A stretch of 13,745 nt of DNA, taken from Desulfuromonadales bacterium. GTDB lineage: Bacteria; Desulfobacterota; Desulfuromonadia; Desulfuromonadales; BM103. The notes under the pieces are model-generated. The model was not told the origin of the DNA and searched no databases. It saw only the letters and a program-made list of their open reading frames with translations. The stretch lies in NCBI GenBank assembly GCA_029859485.1, contig JAOUDB010000030.1, positions 1 through 13,745 on the forward strand. The letters are read 5' to 3'. Shown in pieces: positions 7,487 to 13,745 of the stretch. Position 1 is the first letter of the stretch; the number at the start of each line of letters is the position of its first letter. The translations under genes and the position numbers were made by a program.

Positions 7487-7561
7487 ACCACGAAGATCAC
7501 GAAGCACACGAACAAAAGGCCCTGCTGCTTCCCCTTCGTGTGCTTCGTGTTCTTCGTGTTT
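7487..7561. repeat. Inverted repeat built of 9-nt tandem units (family A, copy 1)
   Basis: The arms 7489-7512 and 7535-7558 are 24 bases each and pair with a single mismatch around a 22-base loop. Each arm is a tandem of the 9-mer CACGAAGNN. It fills the dapB-dapL gap, starting about six bases after the dapB stop and ending about ten bases before the dapL ribosome-binding site. There is no U tract, so it is not a typical terminator. A relative lies on the other side of dapB. Confidence 0.9.
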
Positions 7562-7566
7562 TATTG

Positions 7567-8370
7567 CTATTTCAATCCAAGAACATCCTGCATATCGTAA
7601 AGCCCGACTGGCTTTTCTGCCAGCCAACCGGCAGCGCGAACGGCACCACGGGCGAACATGTCGCGGCTCATGGCGCGATGGGTCAGTTCAATGCGTTCTC
7701 CCATGCCGATGAAGTAGACAGTGTGCTCGCCGACGATATCGCCACCGCGCACGGTCTGCATGCCGATCTCTTCCTGGCTGCGCTCACCGCACATGCCTTC
7801 ACGATGATAGTTGGCGACTTCGTTGTAATTACGATCGAGAGCATCGGCAACGATTTCGCCCATACGCACGGCTGTTCCCGAGGGAGAGTCTTTCTTCTTG
7901 TTGTGGTGCAGTTCAACGATCTCGACATCGAAGCCTTCGCCGAGGGTCTTGGCCATATCCTTGAGCAGCTTGAAGCAGACGTTGACACCAACACTCATGT
8001 TCGGTGCAAAAACCACCGGAGATGATTCAGCAACTCGAGAAATAACCTCACGTTGCTCTGGGTTCAGACCGGTTGTGCCGACCACCATGGCTTTGCCGAG
8101 CCTTGCGCAGACTTCGGCGTTATCGATCGTTACTTCCGGCCAGGTAAAGTCGATGAGGACGTCAGCGCTGGCAAGGGCCTGATCAAGGGAGTCGGTAATT
8201 GCGACACCGAGATCACCGCAACCGGCAACGTAGCCGGCGTCATCTCCGAGCCTGGCATGTCCAGCCATTTCGATCGCACCGGCGACTTCCAATCCCTCTG
8301 CTTCGGTAATCAGGGTAATGATACGGCCGCCCATACGCCCGGCGGCCCCAGTCACAGCAACTTTGATCAT
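7567..8370 (-). CDS. dapB: 4-hydroxy-tetrahydrodipicolinate reductase
   Basis: DapB reduces the DapA product with NAD(P)H to tetrahydrodipicolinate, the substrate of DapL. With the start at 8370 it has 267 residues, the normal family length. It shows the dinucleotide-binding motif VTGAAGRMGGR (8-16 region), VGTTG (97-101), FAPNMSVGVN (121-130), and the catalytic/substrate segment ELHHNKKKDSPSGTA with H155 and K159, equivalent to the E. coli catalytic His and Lys. The frame stays open upstream to a TTG at 8461-8463. Those 31 extra codons translate a family A repeat and have no place in DapB. The start at 8370 gives MIKVAVTG and follows GAGGT at a spacing of five. Repeats of family A lie on both sides of the gene. 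Confidence 0.96.
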   Translation of the reverse strand: MIKVAVTGAAGRMGGRIITLITEAEGLEVAGAIEMAGHARLGDDAGYVAGCGDLGVAITDSLDQALASADVLIDFTWPEVTIDNAEVCARLGKAMVVGTTGLNPEQREVISRVAESSPVVFAPNMSVGVNVCFKLLKDMAKTLGEGFDVEIVELHHNKKKDSPSGTAVRMGEIVADALDRNYNEVANYHREGMCGERSQEEIGMQTVRGGDIVGEHTVYFIGMGERIELTHRAMSRDMFARGAVRAAGWLAEKPVGLYDMQDVLGLK

Positions 8371-8375
8371 TTTTA

Positions 8376-8380
8376 ACCTC
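8376..8380 (-). promoter_or_regulatory. Shine-Dalgarno fixing the dapB start
   Basis: The minus strand reads GAGGT, five bases before the ATG at 8368-8370. It supports that start over the TTG 93 bases upstream, which lies in the repeat. Confidence 0.75.
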
Positions 8381-8388
8381 AATAATAG

Positions 8389-8460
8389 GCCACGAAAGAC
8401 ACGAAGAACAGAGAGATAACAACGGCTCTTTCCTTCGCGCTCTTCGTGATCTCTGTGGTT
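8389..8460. repeat. Inverted repeat built of 9-nt tandem units (family A, copy 2)
   Basis: This is a degenerate relative of the element at 7487-7561. The arms, about 8390-8415 and 8432-8458, again step by nine bases: CACGAAAGA, CACGAAGAA, CAGAGAGAT on one side, and (read from the minus strand) CACAGAGAT, CACGAAGAG, CGCGAAGGA on the other. It begins about four bases after the dapA stop and ends eight bases before the dapB ribosome-binding site. It is translated in the spurious 5' extension of dapB. Confidence 0.8.
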
Positions 8461-8463
8461 CAA

Positions 8464-9339
8464 TCAGATAATGGCATATTTTTTCAAAACGGTTTTTAAC
8501 TTCTCAAGTGTTTCATCATCCATGTCGACCAGGGGCAGTCGGACGTTCGCCTGCAATTTGCCCATCAGTTCCAGGGTTTTTTTGACCGGGACCGGGTTTG
8601 ATTCGATAAACATGGCATTGTGAAAGTCCAACATCTCCAGATGCAGCTTGCGAGCCATCATGTAGTCGGCGTTCAGGACCGCTTCGACCATGTCCTTGAC
8701 CTGCTTGGGAATGGCATTGGCGGAAACTGAAATAACCCCCTTGGCGCCGCAGCACATCATCGGGAAGGTGAGAAAGTCGTCACCGGAGATGACGTCGATC
8801 TTTTCACCGGCTTTTGCCAGAATCTCCGAGACCTGGGTCAGGCTGCCGGAGGCTTCCTTGATCGCAACGATGTTGTCGAATTCAGAGAGGCGGACAGTTG
8901 TCGCAGAGGTCATGTTAACGCCGGTACGACCGGGGACATTGTAGAGAATCTGGGGTAACGCAACCTCTTCAGCAAGCAACTTGTAATGCTGAAAGATACC
9001 TTCCTGGGAAGGTTTGTTGTAGTAGGGGCAGACCAGCAGGAGGCCATCGGCGCCCATGTCCTTGGCCTTGTTAGAGAGATGGATGGCTTCGGCCGTGTTG
9101 TTGGCACCTGTGCCGGCGATAACAGGAACACGCTTGTTGACCTGGTCGAGACAAACCTTGATGACATATTCGTGCTCGTCAACATCGAGGGTCGCTGATT
9201 CTCCTGTTGTGCCGCAGGGGACGATAACGTCAGTGCCGTTTTCGATCTGGAAGTCGATCAGCTGACGATAGGTCTCCTCGGCAAATTGCCCCTGGTTATC
9301 AAAAGGGGTGACGATCGCTACCATGGATCCACTGAACAT
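8464..9339 (-). CDS. dapA: 4-hydroxy-tetrahydrodipicolinate synthase
   Basis: DapA condenses pyruvate with aspartate semialdehyde, the first committed step of diaminopimelate/lysine synthesis. At 291 residues it is the usual length. The active-site residues fall at the same numbers as in E. coli DapA: T44 and T45 in PCGTTGES, Y107 in CPYYNKP, Y133 and R138 in YNVPGRTG, and Schiff-base K161 in VAIKEASG. Residues lining the lysine allosteric site (S48, A49, H56, N80, E84, Y106) are present, with V at position 53 where E. coli has H, so feedback inhibition by lysine is likely. The start MFSGSMVAIVTPF aligns with the E. coli N-terminus and follows AGGAG. The open frame extends 35 codons further up without family similarity. 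It is followed by a family A repeat and dapB. Confidence 0.97.
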   Translation of the reverse strand: MFSGSMVAIVTPFDNQGQFAEETYRQLIDFQIENGTDVIVPCGTTGESATLDVDEHEYVIKVCLDQVNKRVPVIAGTGANNTAEAIHLSNKAKDMGADGLLLVCPYYNKPSQEGIFQHYKLLAEEVALPQILYNVPGRTGVNMTSATTVRLSEFDNIVAIKEASGSLTQVSEILAKAGEKIDVISGDDFLTFPMMCCGAKGVISVSANAIPKQVKDMVEAVLNADYMMARKLHLEMLDFHNAMFIESNPVPVKKTLELMGKLQANVRLPLVDMDDETLEKLKTVLKKYAII

Positions 9340-9479
9340 GATTCTCTCCTTAAAGGGCGAAGACGACCGGATCTCATTGTCCGAACGTTCTCTGGTGCTA
9401 TTTGAATTTTCTGAAATCAAGTCACTGATGCACTTAGGTAACATAGCAGTAGACTCTTGTAAAGCCTGTATCTAGGCCC
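9340..9479. other. Gap between the lipoprotein gene and dapA, no gene seen
   Basis: This 140-base gap is the widest one upstream of dapA and is AT-richer than its surroundings. I found no coding sequence and no repeat of either hairpin family. A small palindrome (CCCTCAGTGAGGG) overlaps the lipoprotein stop codon, but its loop is too tight and no U run follows. A TTTACA at 9457-9462 on the minus strand could be a -35 box, but I see no good -10 at the right distance. This is where lysA would sit in the related gene order I recall. Confidence 0.4.
9344..9350 (-). promoter_or_regulatory. Shine-Dalgarno fixing the dapA start
   Basis: The minus strand reads AGGAGAG just before the ATG at 9337-9339 (AGGAG core at a spacing of six). 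It supports the 291-residue form over the longer frame beginning at 9444. Confidence 0.8.
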
Positions 9480-10271
9480 TCACTGAGGGGTCATCAGCAC
9501 ACCAGGGCTGGGCATACTTTCAAGCTGTTGGGTGCCAGTGCTTACGAGTGCGCTGACGCGATATTCATAGGCCCGTCCGTTATCGAGGCCGCGATCAAGC
9601 AGGTGGGTCTCCTGCAAGGGCTTGACGTTGACCGGAACAATCGGAAATGGCCGTTTTGCCTGTCTCCGATACAGGTTGTAACCGAGCAGCTCCAACCCTT
9701 CCGGAAGAGTGGGTGCGTCCCATTGCAGTGCAATTTGACCGTCACCAGATTCCGCTTTCAAGCCGCTGGGTGCAGGCGGTGATTGCCGGACTTCAAGATG
9801 AATCGTAGCGAACGGCGCTTCTATATTGCCAAGGGTGACAGGCACAATGGCATATCTGTAGCCTGTGCCCTCGCGAATATCGAAATCACGCCAGTAAATC
9901 CGGTTGCCAATCCTTTGCCCCGGGGTCGGATCCTTGATGTCAAGCTCGGCGACCTCGTCTTCCGGGGTGCGGCAGGTAGGGCAGCCTTCAGTCGCGTTAT
10001 AGGTCAGGCGTTTGATGATAAAGCCGGTCAAGTCTTCTGCACTGCCAACACGCTTGTCGGAAGGAATTGTCCAGCCGAGGACGAAAAGGTTGCCCTGCTG
10101 TTGCAGCGTGACATCGGTCGGAGCTTCCAGCTGTATGGCAACTTTTGGCCGGACCGGGCCCTTTTTACCGCAGGCAGAGAGCGACACAAGCAGCGAAAAA
10201 CTGATGGTGACGAGGAGCGCAGCTCGCAGGATCGAGGTCACGGGAAAAGCAAACAAACGGAAAAAACTCAT
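9480..10271 (-). CDS. Lipoprotein with two fibronectin type III-like domains
   Basis: The 263-residue product has a type II signal: a basic/hydrophobic N-terminus and the lipobox LSAC, with the lipidated cysteine at C34. G35 follows, which favours outer-membrane sorting. The mature start [10 protein letters not shown] resembles the CGxKGPL start of the small LptM/YifL lipoproteins, often encoded near lysA or dapF. The rest is predicted beta-rich: an FN3-like domain at about 49-162 and a clearer one at about 165-263 ([35 protein letters not shown]). The first domain carries a CPTC pair (C97, C100), possibly a disulfide or metal site. Its ATG overlaps the argH stop as ATGA and has AAAGG at a spacing of six, so translation is probably coupled to argH. 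Its function is unknown; it is not an enzyme of the neighbouring pathways as far as the sequence shows. Confidence 0.85.
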
Positions 10272-11656
10272 ACTTGGCCTTTCTTCAGGGCCTGGCGGGC
10301 GAGGCCAAGTTCTTTTTCGACCGCTGAGCGGGCTGTTCCGCCGGTAGCTGTGCGGGCATTCACAGAGGCTTCAAGGGTGACGTAATTGAAAATGTCGGAT
10401 TCGATGTCGCTGGAGAATTGCTGGAACTCGGCAAGAGTCAAATCGGGAATATCCTTTGCGTTCTCAACACAGTAACGCACGGTTTTGCCAACGACTTCGT
10501 GGGCGTTACGGAAGGGCAGGCCCTTGCGCACCAGGTAATCGGCAATGTCAGTGGCGGTTGAGAAGCCGCGTGCGGCAGCAATCCTCATCTGTTCCGACTT
10601 GATGCTCATCTCGGCGATCATCTCGGCGAAGACCTTGAGTGAACCACGTACTGTGTCGATGGTGTCGAAGAGAGGCTCTTTGTCTTCTTGCATATCCTTG
10701 TTATAAGCCAGGGGCAGGGACTTCATAAGCGTTAGTAAACTCATCGAATTGCCATAAACCCGGCCGGTTTTACCACGCACCAGTTCTGGGACATCGGGGT
10801 TTTTCTTCTGCGGCATGATCGAGCTGCCGGTGCAGAAGCCATCGGAGAGATCGATGAAGGCAAAATCGGCACTCGACCAGAGGATCAGTTCCTCGGAGAG
10901 TCTCGAGAGATGCATCATCATGATCGAGGCGAAGCTGCAGAACTCGAGCGCGAAATCACGATCGGAGACGGTGTCGAGGCTGTTGCGTGTGACACCGGCA
11001 AAACCGAGTTGCTCGGCCACCCATTCCCGGTCAATGGGGAAGGTTGTTCCCGCAAGGGCTCCGGCACCCAGAGGCATCAGGTTGAGGCGACTGCGCAAGT
11101 CGTGCAGACGACCGGTATCCCGCGCCAGCATCTCCACGTAAGCGAGCATGTGATGGGCAAAGAGAACCGGCTGTGCGGTTTGCAGGTGCGTGTAGCCCGG
11201 CATGATGACATCGAGGTTTGCCTCGGCCTGGTCAAGCAGGGCCGTTTGCAACTTCTTAAGGGCTGCGGAGATGGCATCAACTTCATCGCGCAGGTAGAGT
11301 CGCACATCGAGTGCGACCTGGTCGTTTCGTGAGCGTGCGGTGTGCAGCTTGCCACCGACCGAACCGATCTTTTCAATCAGGCGTGCTTCGATATTCATGT
11401 GAATATCTTCGCGGGCGACAGAGAAGGTAAAGTTGCCGGATTCGATCTCAAGCAGGATTTCGTTAAGGCCCGCAACGATCGTTTCGGCCTCGCCACCGGT
11501 AATGATCTCCTGCCGGGCGAGCATTCTGGCATGAGTGACAGAACCGAGGATGTCATAGCGGTAAAGGCGTTGGTCAAAGTTGATCGAAGCTGTGAATTCT
11601 TCGACAAAGGCATCGGTCGGTTGTGTGAATCGTCCGGCCCAGAGTTTGTCACTCAT
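10268..11656 (-). CDS. argH: Argininosuccinate lyase
   Basis: ArgH splits argininosuccinate into arginine and fumarate, the last step of arginine synthesis. The protein has 462 residues, normal for the fumarase/aspartase superfamily member. It shows the N-terminal [10 protein letters not shown] typical of bacterial Arg[14 protein letters not shown] (105-117), [10 protein letters not shown] with T156 and H157, and the superfamily signature [11 protein letters not shown] (277-287) carrying the catalytic serine loop. The frame is open 30 codons further up, running into the Nudix gene, but the ATG at 11656 gives the family N-terminus and follows AAGGA at a spacing of six. It lies 40 bases after the Nudix gene and overlaps the lipoprotein gene by four bases. 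Confidence 0.97.
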
Positions 11657-11662
11657 GTTTTT

Positions 11663-11667
11663 TCCTT
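11663..11667 (-). promoter_or_regulatory. Shine-Dalgarno fixing the argH start
   Basis: The minus strand reads AAGGA, six bases before the ATG at 11654-11656. This rules against the longer frame that would begin at 11746 inside the Nudix gene. Confidence 0.7.
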
Positions 11668-11696
11668 TAGCAAGGCAGTCTTGAACTGTTTTACGC

Positions 11697-12188
11697 TCAA
11701 GGTTTTTGGTCAATAATTCCAGCCAGATTGCGGTTTGTCTGTTCATCGTCCGGATTACCCGGATCCTGCAGTACGCCAGGGTAAATCTGGGCCAGGATAT
11801 GGCGTGTGCCGGGGGTCATGTCATATTTAGCAAGTCGTTCTGCAGAAACCCAGTCCGCCTCGGTGACTTCCTGATTATTTGGTACCAGTTCGACCGTCAA
11901 TGGGTGTGCCCGGTAATAGAGAATCACGTAGTGATCATTGTTGCCACCGATGGCAAGGTGTTCGTAAACATCGAGCAGACCGTCGATATGAACTTCGAGA
12001 CCGACTTCTTCACGAACCTCACGGTGCAGTGCTTCTGCTAAAGGTTCACCGTGATCGACCTTGCCTCCCGGCATGACCCACTGACCGCAAAAAGGCTCAA
12101 TGCAGCGCCGGGTCAAAAGGACGCGTTTCTGGTCGTCGATGATGCAGGCGACGATAGAGGTTTTGATCGACTGTTTTTTGAATTCCAT
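11697..12188 (-). CDS. Nudix hydrolase
   Basis: A 163-residue cytoplasmic Nudix protein that should hydrolyse a nucleoside diphosphate linked to another moiety, using Mg2+ or Mn2+. The Nudix box is complete at residues 42-64: G42, E48, R56, E57, E60, E61 and G63 fit GX5EX7REUXEEXGU exactly. The preceding GQWVMPGG is typical of MutT-like members. Substrate cannot be told from the sequence. The C-terminal 25 or so residues (from about PGNPDDEQ) look unstructured. It lies between argG and argH, whose enzymes act in sequence, but no Nudix step is known in arginine synthesis, so it may be a housekeeping passenger. There is no recognisable Shine-Dalgarno before its ATG, because a family B repeat reaches almost to the start codon; no alternative start was found. 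Confidence 0.92.
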
Positions 12189-12193
12189 TTTGG

Positions 12194-12260
12194 TTCAGGG
12201 AGCAGGGCCAAGGGCTAAGGGAAAACCCTGTGCCCTTAACCTTGAACCCTTCTCCTGCTT
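12194..12260. repeat. Inverted repeat built of 7-nt tandem units (family B, copy 1)
   Basis: The left arm is four consecutive heptamers of form NNNAGGG (12194-12221: TTCAGGG, AGCAGGG, CCAAGGG, CTAAGGG). The right arm is heptamers of form CCCTNNN (12226-12260, five units, two of them CCTNNNN). The arms face each other and can fold into a long imperfect hairpin. The element abuts the argG stop codon exactly and ends five bases before the Nudix ATG (eight if the leading GG is excluded). Confidence 0.85.
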
Positions 12261-13478
12261 TTATTTCTTTGCTTCTCTCTGCATCGCTGCAATTCTAAGA
12301 CGCAGCGCGTTCAGCTTGATAAACCCTTCGGCGTCTGCCTGGTTGTAAACTTCATCGGCCTCAAAGGTGGCGAAGTCGACATTGAAAAGGCTGTTGGTGT
12401 CTGAATCACGGCCAACCACGCGGCAGTGACCTTTGTAGAGTTTGACGCGTGCCTTACCGTTGACCGTCTGCTGGGTCTGGTCAACCATCGCCTGCAGCGC
12501 AATGCGCTCCGGAGCGAACCAGAAGCCGTTGTAGACCATCGTGGCGTAGCGGGAGATTATAGAATCACGCAGGTGCATGACTTCGCGGTCCATGGTGATT
12601 GATTCCACGGCGCGGTGAGCTTCTTCGAGAATGGTGCCACCGGGCGTTTCGTAGACCCCGCGACTCTTCATGCCGACAAAGCGATTCTCCATCAGATCGA
12701 CGCGGCCGATACCGTGCTTGCCGCCCAGTTCATTGAGCTTGGCAAGCAGTTTGGCCGGGGAGAGACGTTCGCCGTTAACGGCAACGGCATCACCTTTCTC
12801 AAAATCAATTTCAACATATTCCGGTTGGTCGGGAGCCTCTTCTGGTGCGACGCTGAGAACGTACATGTGCTCAGGTGCTTCGGCCCAGGGGTCTTCAAGT
12901 ATGTCGCCCTCGAAAGAAATGTGCAACAGGTTGCGGTCGCTACTCCAGGGACTCTTTTTGCTGGTCGGTACTGGGATGCCATGCTTCTTGGCATACTCTT
13001 CCAGTGCCGTACGGCTGTTTAAATCCCACTCGCGCCAGGGGGCGATGACCGTAACAGAAGGATCAAAGTGATAATAGGCGAGCTCGAAACGAACCTGGTC
13101 GTTGCCCTTGCCGGTTGCGCCATGAGAGACGGCGTCAGCGCCTTCTTTGGCGGCGATTTCCATCTGTGCTTTGGAGATCAACGGCCGGGCGATCGAGGTG
13201 CCGAGGAAATAACGTCCTTCGTAGATGGCGTTGGCGCGGAACATGGGGAAAACGAAATCGCGGACGAATTCTTCACGCAGGTCGAGGATGTGGCAGGCGC
13301 TTGCGCCGGTATCCTTGGCTTTCTGCGGGATGCCGTCGAGTTCTTCACCCTGGCCGAGGTCAGCCGAAAAGGCGATGACTTCACAACCATATTCTTCAAT
13401 CAGCCACTTCAGGATGATCGAGGTATCAAGACCTCCGGAGTAGGCGAGGACTGCTTTTTTGATTTGTGGTTTAGACAT
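12261..13478 (-). CDS. argG: Argininosuccinate synthase
   Basis: ArgG joins citrulline and aspartate using ATP (giving AMP + PPi) to form argininosuccinate, which ArgH then cleaves. The protein has 405 residues, the standard length of the common (type I) bacterial form rather than the longer E. coli type. The ATP pyrophosphatase P-loop AYSGGLDTS is at 12-20. Also visible are [14 protein letters not shown] (86-99), [14 protein letters not shown] (119-132) and [17 protein letters not shown]. The start has AAGGAG (13488-13493) nine bases upstream. Family B repeats sit on both sides. I see no promoter in the 98-base gap upstream, so it may be transcribed from further up, through the RDD gene. Confidence 0.97.
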
Positions 13479-13506
13479 TAAGAAGTGCTCCTTTTTATTT
13501 ATGATT

Positions 13507-13575
13507 GGTTCAGGACTCAGGGTAAAGGGCTAGGCTTTGATCTTCTTCCCTTGTCCCTGATCCCTTCACCTTAAT
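13507..13575. repeat. Inverted repeat built of 7-nt tandem units (family B, copy 2)
   Basis: The arms 13507-13529 and 13548-13570 pair at 17 of 23 positions around an 18-base loop. The left arm steps as TTCAGGA, CTCAGGG, TAAAGGG. The right arm steps as CCCTTGT, CCCTGAT, CCCTTCA, CCTTAAT, with the next heptamer running into the stop codon of the upstream gene. The left arm closely matches that of the copy after argG, in the same orientation. It ends about 13 bases before the argG ribosome-binding site. Confidence 0.85.
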
Positions 13576-13576
13576 C

Positions 13577-13745
13577 CTAAAGCTTTATAACGTAAGTATC
13601 GGCGATCTTGTCATGCAAACCCTGCTTGCGGTTGTCAAAGGCGACCATGAGATAGCCGATGCCGAGCAGGATGCTGGAAATAAACTTTCCAAGGACTTCG
13701 CGAAGTGCAGCGCGACCGTAGTTGATCGGGCTGCCGTCGGTGCGG
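13577..13745 (-). CDS. RDD-family membrane protein, C-terminal fragment (5' end outside window)
   Basis: Only the last 55 codons and a TAG stop are in the window. The frame reads into the right edge without a start. The visible part fits the C-terminus of RDD-domain membrane proteins: RAALREVLGKFISS, a hydrophobic stretch SSILLGIGYLMVAF that would span the membrane, then FDNRKQGLHDKIADTYVI, matching the conserved 'kqalHD..a.T.Vv' ending. RDD proteins are small multi-pass inner-membrane proteins of mostly unknown role, some linked to ion transport. No enzyme of the neighbouring pathways is suggested. It ends 98 bases before argG, and the heptamer repeat overlaps its last codons. Confidence 0.8.
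   Translation of the reverse strand, partial: RTDGSPINYGRAALREVLGKFISSILLGIGYLMVAFDNRKQGLHDKIADTYVIKL

Follow-up and report, generated by a model that had tools for sequence, protein, structure and literature searches.

The window, by which we mean the whole 13,745-nt stretch that was analyzed, covers positions 1-13,745 of contig JAOUDB010000030.1 from a Desulfuromonadales bacterium (BM103; assembly GCA_029859485.1), whose group consists of sediment bacteria. All of the genes concerned here lie on the minus strand, and four of the gaps between them carry repeat elements, which we refer to as E1 to E4:

7487..7560, minus strand: E1, hairpin of 9-nt CACGAAGNN units in the dapB-dapL gap; 6 free bases on the stop side, 24 on the start side
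7567..7569, minus strand: dapB stop codon (TAG)
8389..8459, minus strand: E2, hairpin of 9-nt units (CACGAAG, CACAGAG, CGCGAAG) in the dapA-dapB gap; 4 free bases on the stop side, 18 on the start side
8464..8466, minus strand: dapA stop codon (TGA)
11657..11696, minus strand: Nudix-argH gap, without a hairpin
12192..12255, minus strand: E3, hairpin of 7-nt GGNNNAG units in the argG-Nudix gap; 5 free bases on the stop side, 3 before the Nudix ATG
12261..12263, minus strand: argG stop codon (TAA)
13507..13577, minus strand: E4, hairpin of 7-nt GGNNNAG units in the RDD-argG gap; one base shared with the RDD stop, 28 free on the start side
13577..13579, minus strand: stop codon (TAG) of a putative RDD gene, so named in the first-pass annotation and cut by the window edge

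Genes were called with a purpose-made caller, which agrees with the set coordinates for the seven complete genes from dapL to argG but missed the truncated end of the RDD gene, added by hand. The four gaps measure 104 nt (dapB stop to dapL), 93 nt (dapA stop to dapB), 72 nt (argG stop to Nudix), and 98 nt (RDD stop to argG). In E1 and E2, a 9-nt unit made up of CACGAAG and two variable nucleotides is arrayed in inverted orientation, with CACAGAG and CGCGAAG variants present in E2; the 7-nt unit GGNNNAG is arrayed in the same way in E3 and E4. Each element has a more stable fold than its dinucleotide shuffles (z scores of -9.4, -3.7, -3.3, and -3.1 for E1 to E4). The first-pass annotation had described elements that begin 0-8 bases past a stop codon, one of them overlapping it, that end shortly before the next ribosome-binding site or start, and that have no U tract. 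Our measurements agree on each point: the elements start 6, 4, and 5 nt behind dapB, dapA, and argG and overlap the RDD stop by 1 base, they leave 24, 18, 3, and 28 free bases on the start side, and they form stable hairpins, none with an adjacent U-tract.

We measured stop-to-element distances across 101 stretches from the genus, collapsing orthologues and counting full hairpins only unless stated. A strict de novo inverted-repeat search recovered one of the four window elements, and the counts rest on looser and pattern-based searches; the G014 and G016 copies are a selection among the matches listed, and the G015 copies leave out 13 matches that looked unpaired. Distances were far from uniform for the two families found in the window. 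Full hairpins followed a stop at a distance of at most 15 nt in 11/16 cases for CACGAAG (P 3.5e-7) and 14/16 for GGNNNAR (P 2.9e-11), where uniform intergenic insertion predicts 12.8%, so the earlier claim that two unrelated families obey one placement rule holds beyond the window. When the orthologue groups of the window itself were omitted, the counts were 9/14 and 12/14. Co-directional gaps held 15/16 CACGAAG and 16/16 GGNNNAR full hairpins (31/32 combined, with 0 convergent, and 25/32 within 15 nt of a stop).

Other hairpins in the genus behaved differently. CACAGAG, a close cousin with an 8/9-nt unit, was found behind a stop in 3/18 cases (P 0.41), and aperiodic intergenic hairpins were not enriched there (31/215); CGCRRAG, a related 8/9-nt family from the same genomes, did not clearly follow the rule (5/16, P 0.044). 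Thus, what had been a vague notion that repeats like gene ends becomes a measured rule with internal controls, which two families obey and a cousin family and ordinary hairpins do not. Outside the genus, 15 elements in 27 loci chosen for dapL were all co-directional, and at these loci, which are tied to the dap operon and hold few copies, CACAGAG lay behind a stop in 5/6 cases and CGCRRAG in 3/5. Since CACAGAG can obey the rule there, the contrast between families may be specific to a lineage. The explanation that CACAGAG is exempt merely because its copies are younger was weakened: our first tallies, in which 12/15 CACGAAG groups and 4/19 CACAGAG groups were common to another genome, were skewed by the choice of loci. 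With further stretches of the window's own genome included, the orthologous gap in G000 could be compared for 11/21 CACAGAG and 8/15 CACGAAG elements of G015. All 8 of the CACGAAG gaps held a similar element or remnant, as did most of the 11 CACAGAG gaps, one of which was empty and one of which held a 7-nt array; because the stretches compared were picked by pattern matches, empty gaps are under-sampled in these counts.

The proximity to stops is mainly a matter of gap choice. Co-directional gaps with at most 60 empty nt held 10/16 CACGAAG and 13/16 GGNNNAR full hairpins, against 4.5% expected. Within a given gap, CACGAAG full hairpins lay at the stop in 11 cases versus 9.5 expected (P 0.22) and GGNNNAR in 14 versus 11.9 (P 0.07) under random placement sparing 15 nt before the start. 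The null expectations are sensitive to this reserve and to the 500-nt gap cap. The elements sit just behind gene ends because narrow operon gaps are favored, and the free space in such gaps is almost wholly behind the stop. The first-pass annotation's suggestion of targeting to, or retention at, gene ends therefore stands insofar as placement is nonrandom, with two families enriched and CACAGAG and the 215 aperiodic hairpins not, but most of the effect is the choice of tight operon gaps.

This pattern could have arisen by a preference for particular target sites, with a transposase or another activity inserting both families directly behind stops or beside ribosome-binding sites. Such a preference would fit the observation that two families, and not their cousin, favor the same sites. 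It would also fit the stop-side excess seen once single-arm copies are added (GGNNNAR 19 versus 13.0 expected, P 0.001; CACGAAG 13 versus 9.3, P 0.009), although the free space available to these copies is overestimated. Full hairpins in longer gaps showed no stop-side excess (2 versus 1.5 expected, in 7 cases only), and the two Y1 transposase (PF01797) genes in the window's own genome, an assembly that is 91.6% complete, had no unit pattern in the surrounding 2.6-3.4 kb. We consider this explanation improbable. A RAYT-driven REP system is excluded for the loci seen, as the Y1 genes are not flanked by repeat copies.

Alternatively, tight gaps may simply be a neutral refuge. Elements would insert anywhere, sloppy deletions would purge them from long gaps, and deletions in tight gaps would likely also hit a stop or a ribosome-binding site, which would leave survivors near stops without any function. 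The near-random position of elements within their gaps is consistent with this, as are single-arm remnants in tight gaps such as the 38-nt argG-Nudix gap of G013. However, CACAGAG elements are comparable in size and in many cases also retained in the orthologous gap of G000, yet they are not limited to tight gaps. Mere shelter also does not predict how the units evolve. Between orthologues, 7-nt unit sites differed at 17/589 positions, 2-nt spacers at 15/107, and loop sites at 68/597, such that units change approximately 5 times more slowly than spacers. Unit change was below that of a neutral simulation using the same detection filter, and folding energy was better preserved than random substitutions of matched classes would leave it (P 0.027 to 0.0025 over 13-18 pairs), although the P values of these comparisons are optimistic because orthologous pairs share lineages. 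We consider a neutral refuge rather unlikely.

The stems themselves are not maintained base by base, an explanation we excluded because spacers are not complementary in register. Spacers matched between arms at 23/74 positions in register and 46/150 out of register for CACGAAG, at 21/46 and 34/88 for CACAGAG, and at 5/18 and 16/28 for CGCRRAG. Units are kept and the spacers next to them drift, which suggests that the functional or recognized part is the unit rather than a perfect stem.

The first-pass annotation also raised the idea that the hairpins partly terminate transcription and so set relative expression within the operon. Stable stems between cistrons, and five T a few bases downstream of the E1 stem, are features that intrinsic or partial terminators setting operon stoichiometry might show. 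However, no terminator-like site was found at any of the four elements, and the region as a whole held 5 such sites versus a shuffle mean of 7.0. The idea is not supported, and we regard it as highly improbable; identity as intrinsic terminators is excluded, since the stems lack a directly following U-tract. Rfam models gave no match in the window at the gathering threshold, and a literature search for the unit strings returned unrelated matches only.

In sister species, the four window gaps often contain different hairpin families, while two neighboring gaps contain no hairpin; the Nudix-argH gap held one in 0/10 congeneric genomes read (the window's genome and nine others). Units were 7 nt long at RDD-argG in 7/9 species and at argG-Nudix in 7/7 species with a gap of at least 38 nt, and 8-9 nt long at dapA-dapB in 8/11. 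Several congeners have no element in these gaps, for example in the 18-nt argG-Nudix gaps of G011 and G014. The presence of unrelated families in the same gaps hints at a role, or else a refuge, that these families have in common. It is conceivable that certain operon gaps demand a hairpin behind the stop regardless of its sequence, and that unrelated families fill these gaps or are rewritten in place in sister species, often with a gap-typical unit length and a changed unit sequence. We think this unlikely, but if it were true, selfish repeats would be interchangeable spare parts for intercistronic control. In-place rewriting with constant unit length was rejected as a general rule, given that one orthologous gap had its 8/9-nt family exchanged for a 7-nt one (G015 L156:1368 versus G000 L033). 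Refilling by unrelated families in sister species offers a natural experiment on whether selection acts on intercistronic hairpins as structures.

Our preferred reading, to which we assign a probability of roughly 0.6, is that this Desulfuromonadales genus has several families of intercistronic repeats resembling REPs, and that the four elements represent two of them, inverted arrays of 9-nt (CACGAAGNN) and 7-nt (GGNNNAR) units that are probably mild post-transcriptional modulators. The CACGAAG and GGNNNAR families are found in tight co-directional gaps far more often than uniform insertion would produce. There they would be transcribed together with the genes and form hairpins where the upstream cistron ends on its 3' side, and these hairpins could have a mild influence on mRNA decay or on the terminating ribosome, as reported for E. 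coli REPs. A mild effect, combined with the confinement between a stop on one side and a ribosome-binding site on the other, would allow the elements to persist. From sequence comparison, an mRNA-stabilizing or translation-modulating role may be considered a candidate: slow unit evolution and the better-than-random preservation of folding energy speak for it, whereas the lack of in-register complementarity between spacers, and the absence or replacement of the element in the corresponding gaps of sister species, speak against it.

Both REPs near stop codons and repeats of heptamers have been published before, and the source cited for stop-proximal E. coli REPs is reportedly Liang, Rudd and Deutscher 2015. 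In the related order, Geobacter bemidjiensis and Pelobacter carbinolicus have multicopy nucleotide sequences; passages of PMC2996986 and PMC3543383 report, for G. bemidjiensis, palindromic families and direct repeats of 6-42 nt in 12% of intergenic regions, with several together in 31% of those, and we set these repeats beside the present families by description only. The TAACTGA repeats of Beggiatoaceae likewise form intergenic 7-nt arrays, and a (TAACTGA)n array is present in our relative G015 (L134:1097-1211), but as outlined in part of PMC4679880 these are direct arrays found mostly just upstream of start codons, unlike the inverted arrays here. In Xanthomonas and Nostoc, intergenic heptamers (GGGAATC and GGGGA(T/C)T, respectively) are found chiefly between aligned ORFs; many overlap a stop codon or lie no more than 50 bp from one, and some are inverted (passages of PMC4692102). 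Among our families, it is GGNNNAR alone that combines a 7-nt unit with co-directional gaps near stops (14/16). The same passages describe the heptamers as G-quadruplex-forming direct arrays, whereas ours are inverted arrays of other units, for which hairpin folding alone was computed.

The closest likeness is to the REPs and BIMEs of E. coli, which in the portions of PMC12306157 that concern them are multicopy extragenic palindromes, often just behind stops between co-transcribed genes, forming hairpins without a U-tract; REPs lying less than 16 nt away from a stop reportedly influence mRNA decay or the ribosome as it terminates. The present elements are likewise multicopy, extragenic, and palindromic. 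REPs are placed near gene ends in co-directional or convergent gaps; the CACGAAG and GGNNNAR hairpins lie near gene ends too, but do not use convergent gaps. By eye, the four elements and the printed copies had no consistent tag of the GTAG/GGAG or CGTC type beside the stem (tags as defined in excerpts of PMC3733652 and PMC2817692); CACGAAG hairpins start mostly with ACCACGAAG, and the TAG that E4 overlaps is the RDD stop. In contrast to REPs and BIMEs, then, the elements described here have no GTAG/CGTC tag at the ends of the four elements and no linked RAYT that we found, and they are built from short units in tandem, set apart by variable spacers, with several interchangeable families per genus.

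The four repeat hairpins E1 to E4 lie in a 3.45-Mb assembly of 637 contigs (completeness 91.6%, contamination 6.2%); the four best matches to the window's dapL protein are 82-84% identical, and two are in records named Desulfuromusa, which places the organism in the Desulfuromonadales. All genes concerned are on the minus strand. In gene orientation, the elements are arranged as follows.

E1, minus strand, dapB to dapL: CACGAAG-type units; 6 nt from the dapB stop, 24 nt from the next start
E2, minus strand, dapA to dapB: CACGAAG-type units; 4 nt from the dapA stop, 18 nt from the next start
E3, minus strand, argG to Nudix: GGNNNAG units; 5 nt from the argG stop, with 3 nt (12189-12191) between its end and the Nudix ATG
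E4, minus strand, RDD to argG: GGNNNAG units; one base shared with the RDD stop, 28 nt from the next start

These distances bear out the first-pass annotation, which had placed the elements directly behind stop codons. Since E3 ends only 3 nt from the Nudix ATG, there is no ribosome-binding site between the two, and G015 and G009, other genomes of the genus, are arranged alike. All four elements are inverted arrays, with two variable bases added to each unit in E1 and E2. All fold better than shuffles (4/4), and no terminator-like site in the window coincides with any of them.

We scored hairpins in the orthologous gaps of as many as 11 genomes from the genus. Hairpins were present at dapA-dapB in 10/11, dapB-dapL in 8/11, argG-Nudix in 6/10 and RDD-argG in 5/9, and were found in none of ten Nudix-argH gaps and none of 11 argH-lipoprotein gaps, the latter just 0-11 nt long. 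The family occupying a gap varies. At dapA-dapB we found CACGAAG-type units in the window's own genome (G000) and G015; G016 and G010 have an 8-nt CACAGAG/CACGGAG array there, G009 has a 7-nt one, and G011, G012, G013, G017 and G018 have CGCRRAG-like units. At dapB-dapL, G000, G015 and G009 carry CACGAAG, G016 a 7-nt GACGCGG-type array, and G017 and G010 a GTGGCGC-type array. The best period is 7, with differing units, in 7/9 species at RDD-argG and in 7/7 species whose argG-Nudix gap is at least 38 nt. Element-free gaps measured 18-40 nt (argG-Nudix in G011 and G014, dapB-dapL in G014, RDD-argG in G011). Outside the genus, dapA-dapB holds a hairpin, of varied family, in 11/17 loci versus 70/192 other co-directional gaps (P 0.022).

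Placement was analyzed in the window plus 100 of the 120 stretches fetched from its own genome and ten congeners (101 stretches, 760 kb; the last 20 own-genome stretches fell outside this set). A simple coding-potential script supplied the gene calls. Elements were classed as CACGAAG (A), CACAGAG (B), CGCRRAG (C), GGNNNAR (D) or other 7-nt repeats (E), giving 178 with single-arm copies counted, and orthologous elements were collapsed via flanking sequence. Our null model placed elements uniformly over emptied intergenic space (gaps of ≤500 nt, with the 15 nt ahead of every start kept free). It puts 12.8% of positions within 15 nt after a stop and 4.5% into tight gaps, defined as co-directional gaps of ≤60 nt.

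For A and D, stop distances, proposed earlier as a check, are not uniform over intergenic space: 11/16 full A hairpins (P 3.5e-7) and 14/16 full D hairpins (P 2.9e-11) lie ≤15 nt behind a stop, with 10/16 and 13/16 in tight gaps. The corresponding counts are 3/18 (P 0.41) and 2/18 for B and 5/16 (P 0.044) and 1/16 for C, and 31/215 aperiodic intergenic control hairpins lie ≤15 nt from a stop. With the window's own groups left out, the stop counts are A 9/14, D 12/14, B 2/17 and C 5/16 (A+D 20/27 versus B+C 7/33, P 7e-5); G015 alone, from which every hit except 13 unpaired-looking ones was fetched, gives A 9/12, D 7/8, B 1/15 and C 4/7. This contrast is limited to the genus, since B copies outside it lie behind stops in 5/6 cases.

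Tight co-directional gaps are firmly where A and D reside, and stop proximity largely follows from this. Given the gap, 11 full A hairpins lie near the stop versus 9.5 expected (P 0.22) and 14 full D hairpins versus 11.9 (P 0.07); seven full A/D hairpins sit in gaps that leave ≥40 nt of free space, and two of these are ≤15 nt from the stop, with 1.5 expected. For full hairpins, position within a given gap is thus about what chance would produce. Adding single-arm copies, for which free space is overestimated, gives 13 stop-side A elements versus 9.3 expected (P 0.009) and 19 D versus 13.0 (P 0.001). The proposal that two families obey one placement rule stands as enrichment behind stops, although that rule is largely one of tight-gap occupancy.

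The main rival reading is that the space between stop and ribosome-binding site is a neutral refuge for such elements. We kept 15 of 20 orthologous pairs, dropping five with loops <70% alike, three of which are family replacements at dapA-dapB. Differing sites numbered 17/589 in units, 15/107 in spacers and 68/597 in loops (unit versus spacer P 1.5e-5; before the loop filter 43/796, 21/137 and 117/770), some excess unit conservation being expected because elements are detected through their units. A neutral simulation with the same detection filter gave a unit rate about 0.7 of the loop rate, and the observed unit rate is below it (P 2e-7, sites treated as independent). Spacers of A match between arms no more often in register (23/74) than out of register (46/150). 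Measured against class-matched random substitutions, orthologues keep their folding energy somewhat better: the mean rank is 0.23 over 18 pairs (P 0.0025), 0.26 over the 15 pairs left when the three replacements are removed (P 0.011), and 0.29 over the 13 strictly kept pairs (P 0.027). Given slow units, unmatched spacers and retained folding energy, stems seem to be maintained roughly, via units, rather than pair by pair.

We favor the reading that the elements are REP-like intercistronic repeats, which would be retained in operon gaps and have a mild effect at the upstream cistron's 3' edge. Passages of PMC12306157 report that E. coli REPs <16 nt from a stop lower translation, and part of PMC13289151 describes a stabilizing role for REP hairpins free of U tracts. 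We found no mobilizing enzyme: loci around the two Y1 transposase genes of the window's genome lack the unit pattern. The better of these genes (L031:1501-1860) has, by eye, a short GC-rich hairpin-like sequence of a different kind on both flanks.

Compared with G015, one element of each family, in L045 (G000:C530, 15144-15468) and L038 (G000:C163, the gap orthologous to G015 L168:2992), is apparently split by a ~200-250-nt insert; a similar stretch common to both inserts suggests that another small mobile element has inserted into these repeats. In G015, convergent genes flank a CACAGAG element (L168:12564, gap 185 nt); the G000 counterpart (L038) is a gap of 34 nt, and the two form a clean filled/empty pair. 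CGCAAAG-type elements at L145:3464, L146:2331 and L038:1259 have nearly identical right halves at non-orthologous sites, suggesting recent spread. G015 also contains a long (TAACTGA)n array (L134:1097-1211), a heptamer described in Beggiatoaceae as well (PMC4679880, in part), and other stretches hold further pure 7-nt arrays, e.g., CAGTAAT, GAACACT and GCAAGCT.

Multicopy palindromes are on record in Geobacter (sections of PMC2996986), and in the main-text passages and literature listings consulted on such repeats we found no description of the present units. Closeness to stop codons is already known for REPs from portions of PMC12306157 and PMC3733652. Heptamer repeats of Xanthomonas and Nostoc, as excerpted from PMC4692102, likewise lie near stops between aligned ORFs. 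New here are a family-specific placement rule backed by internal controls, the finding that unrelated families refill the same gaps, and the conservation of units but not spacers.
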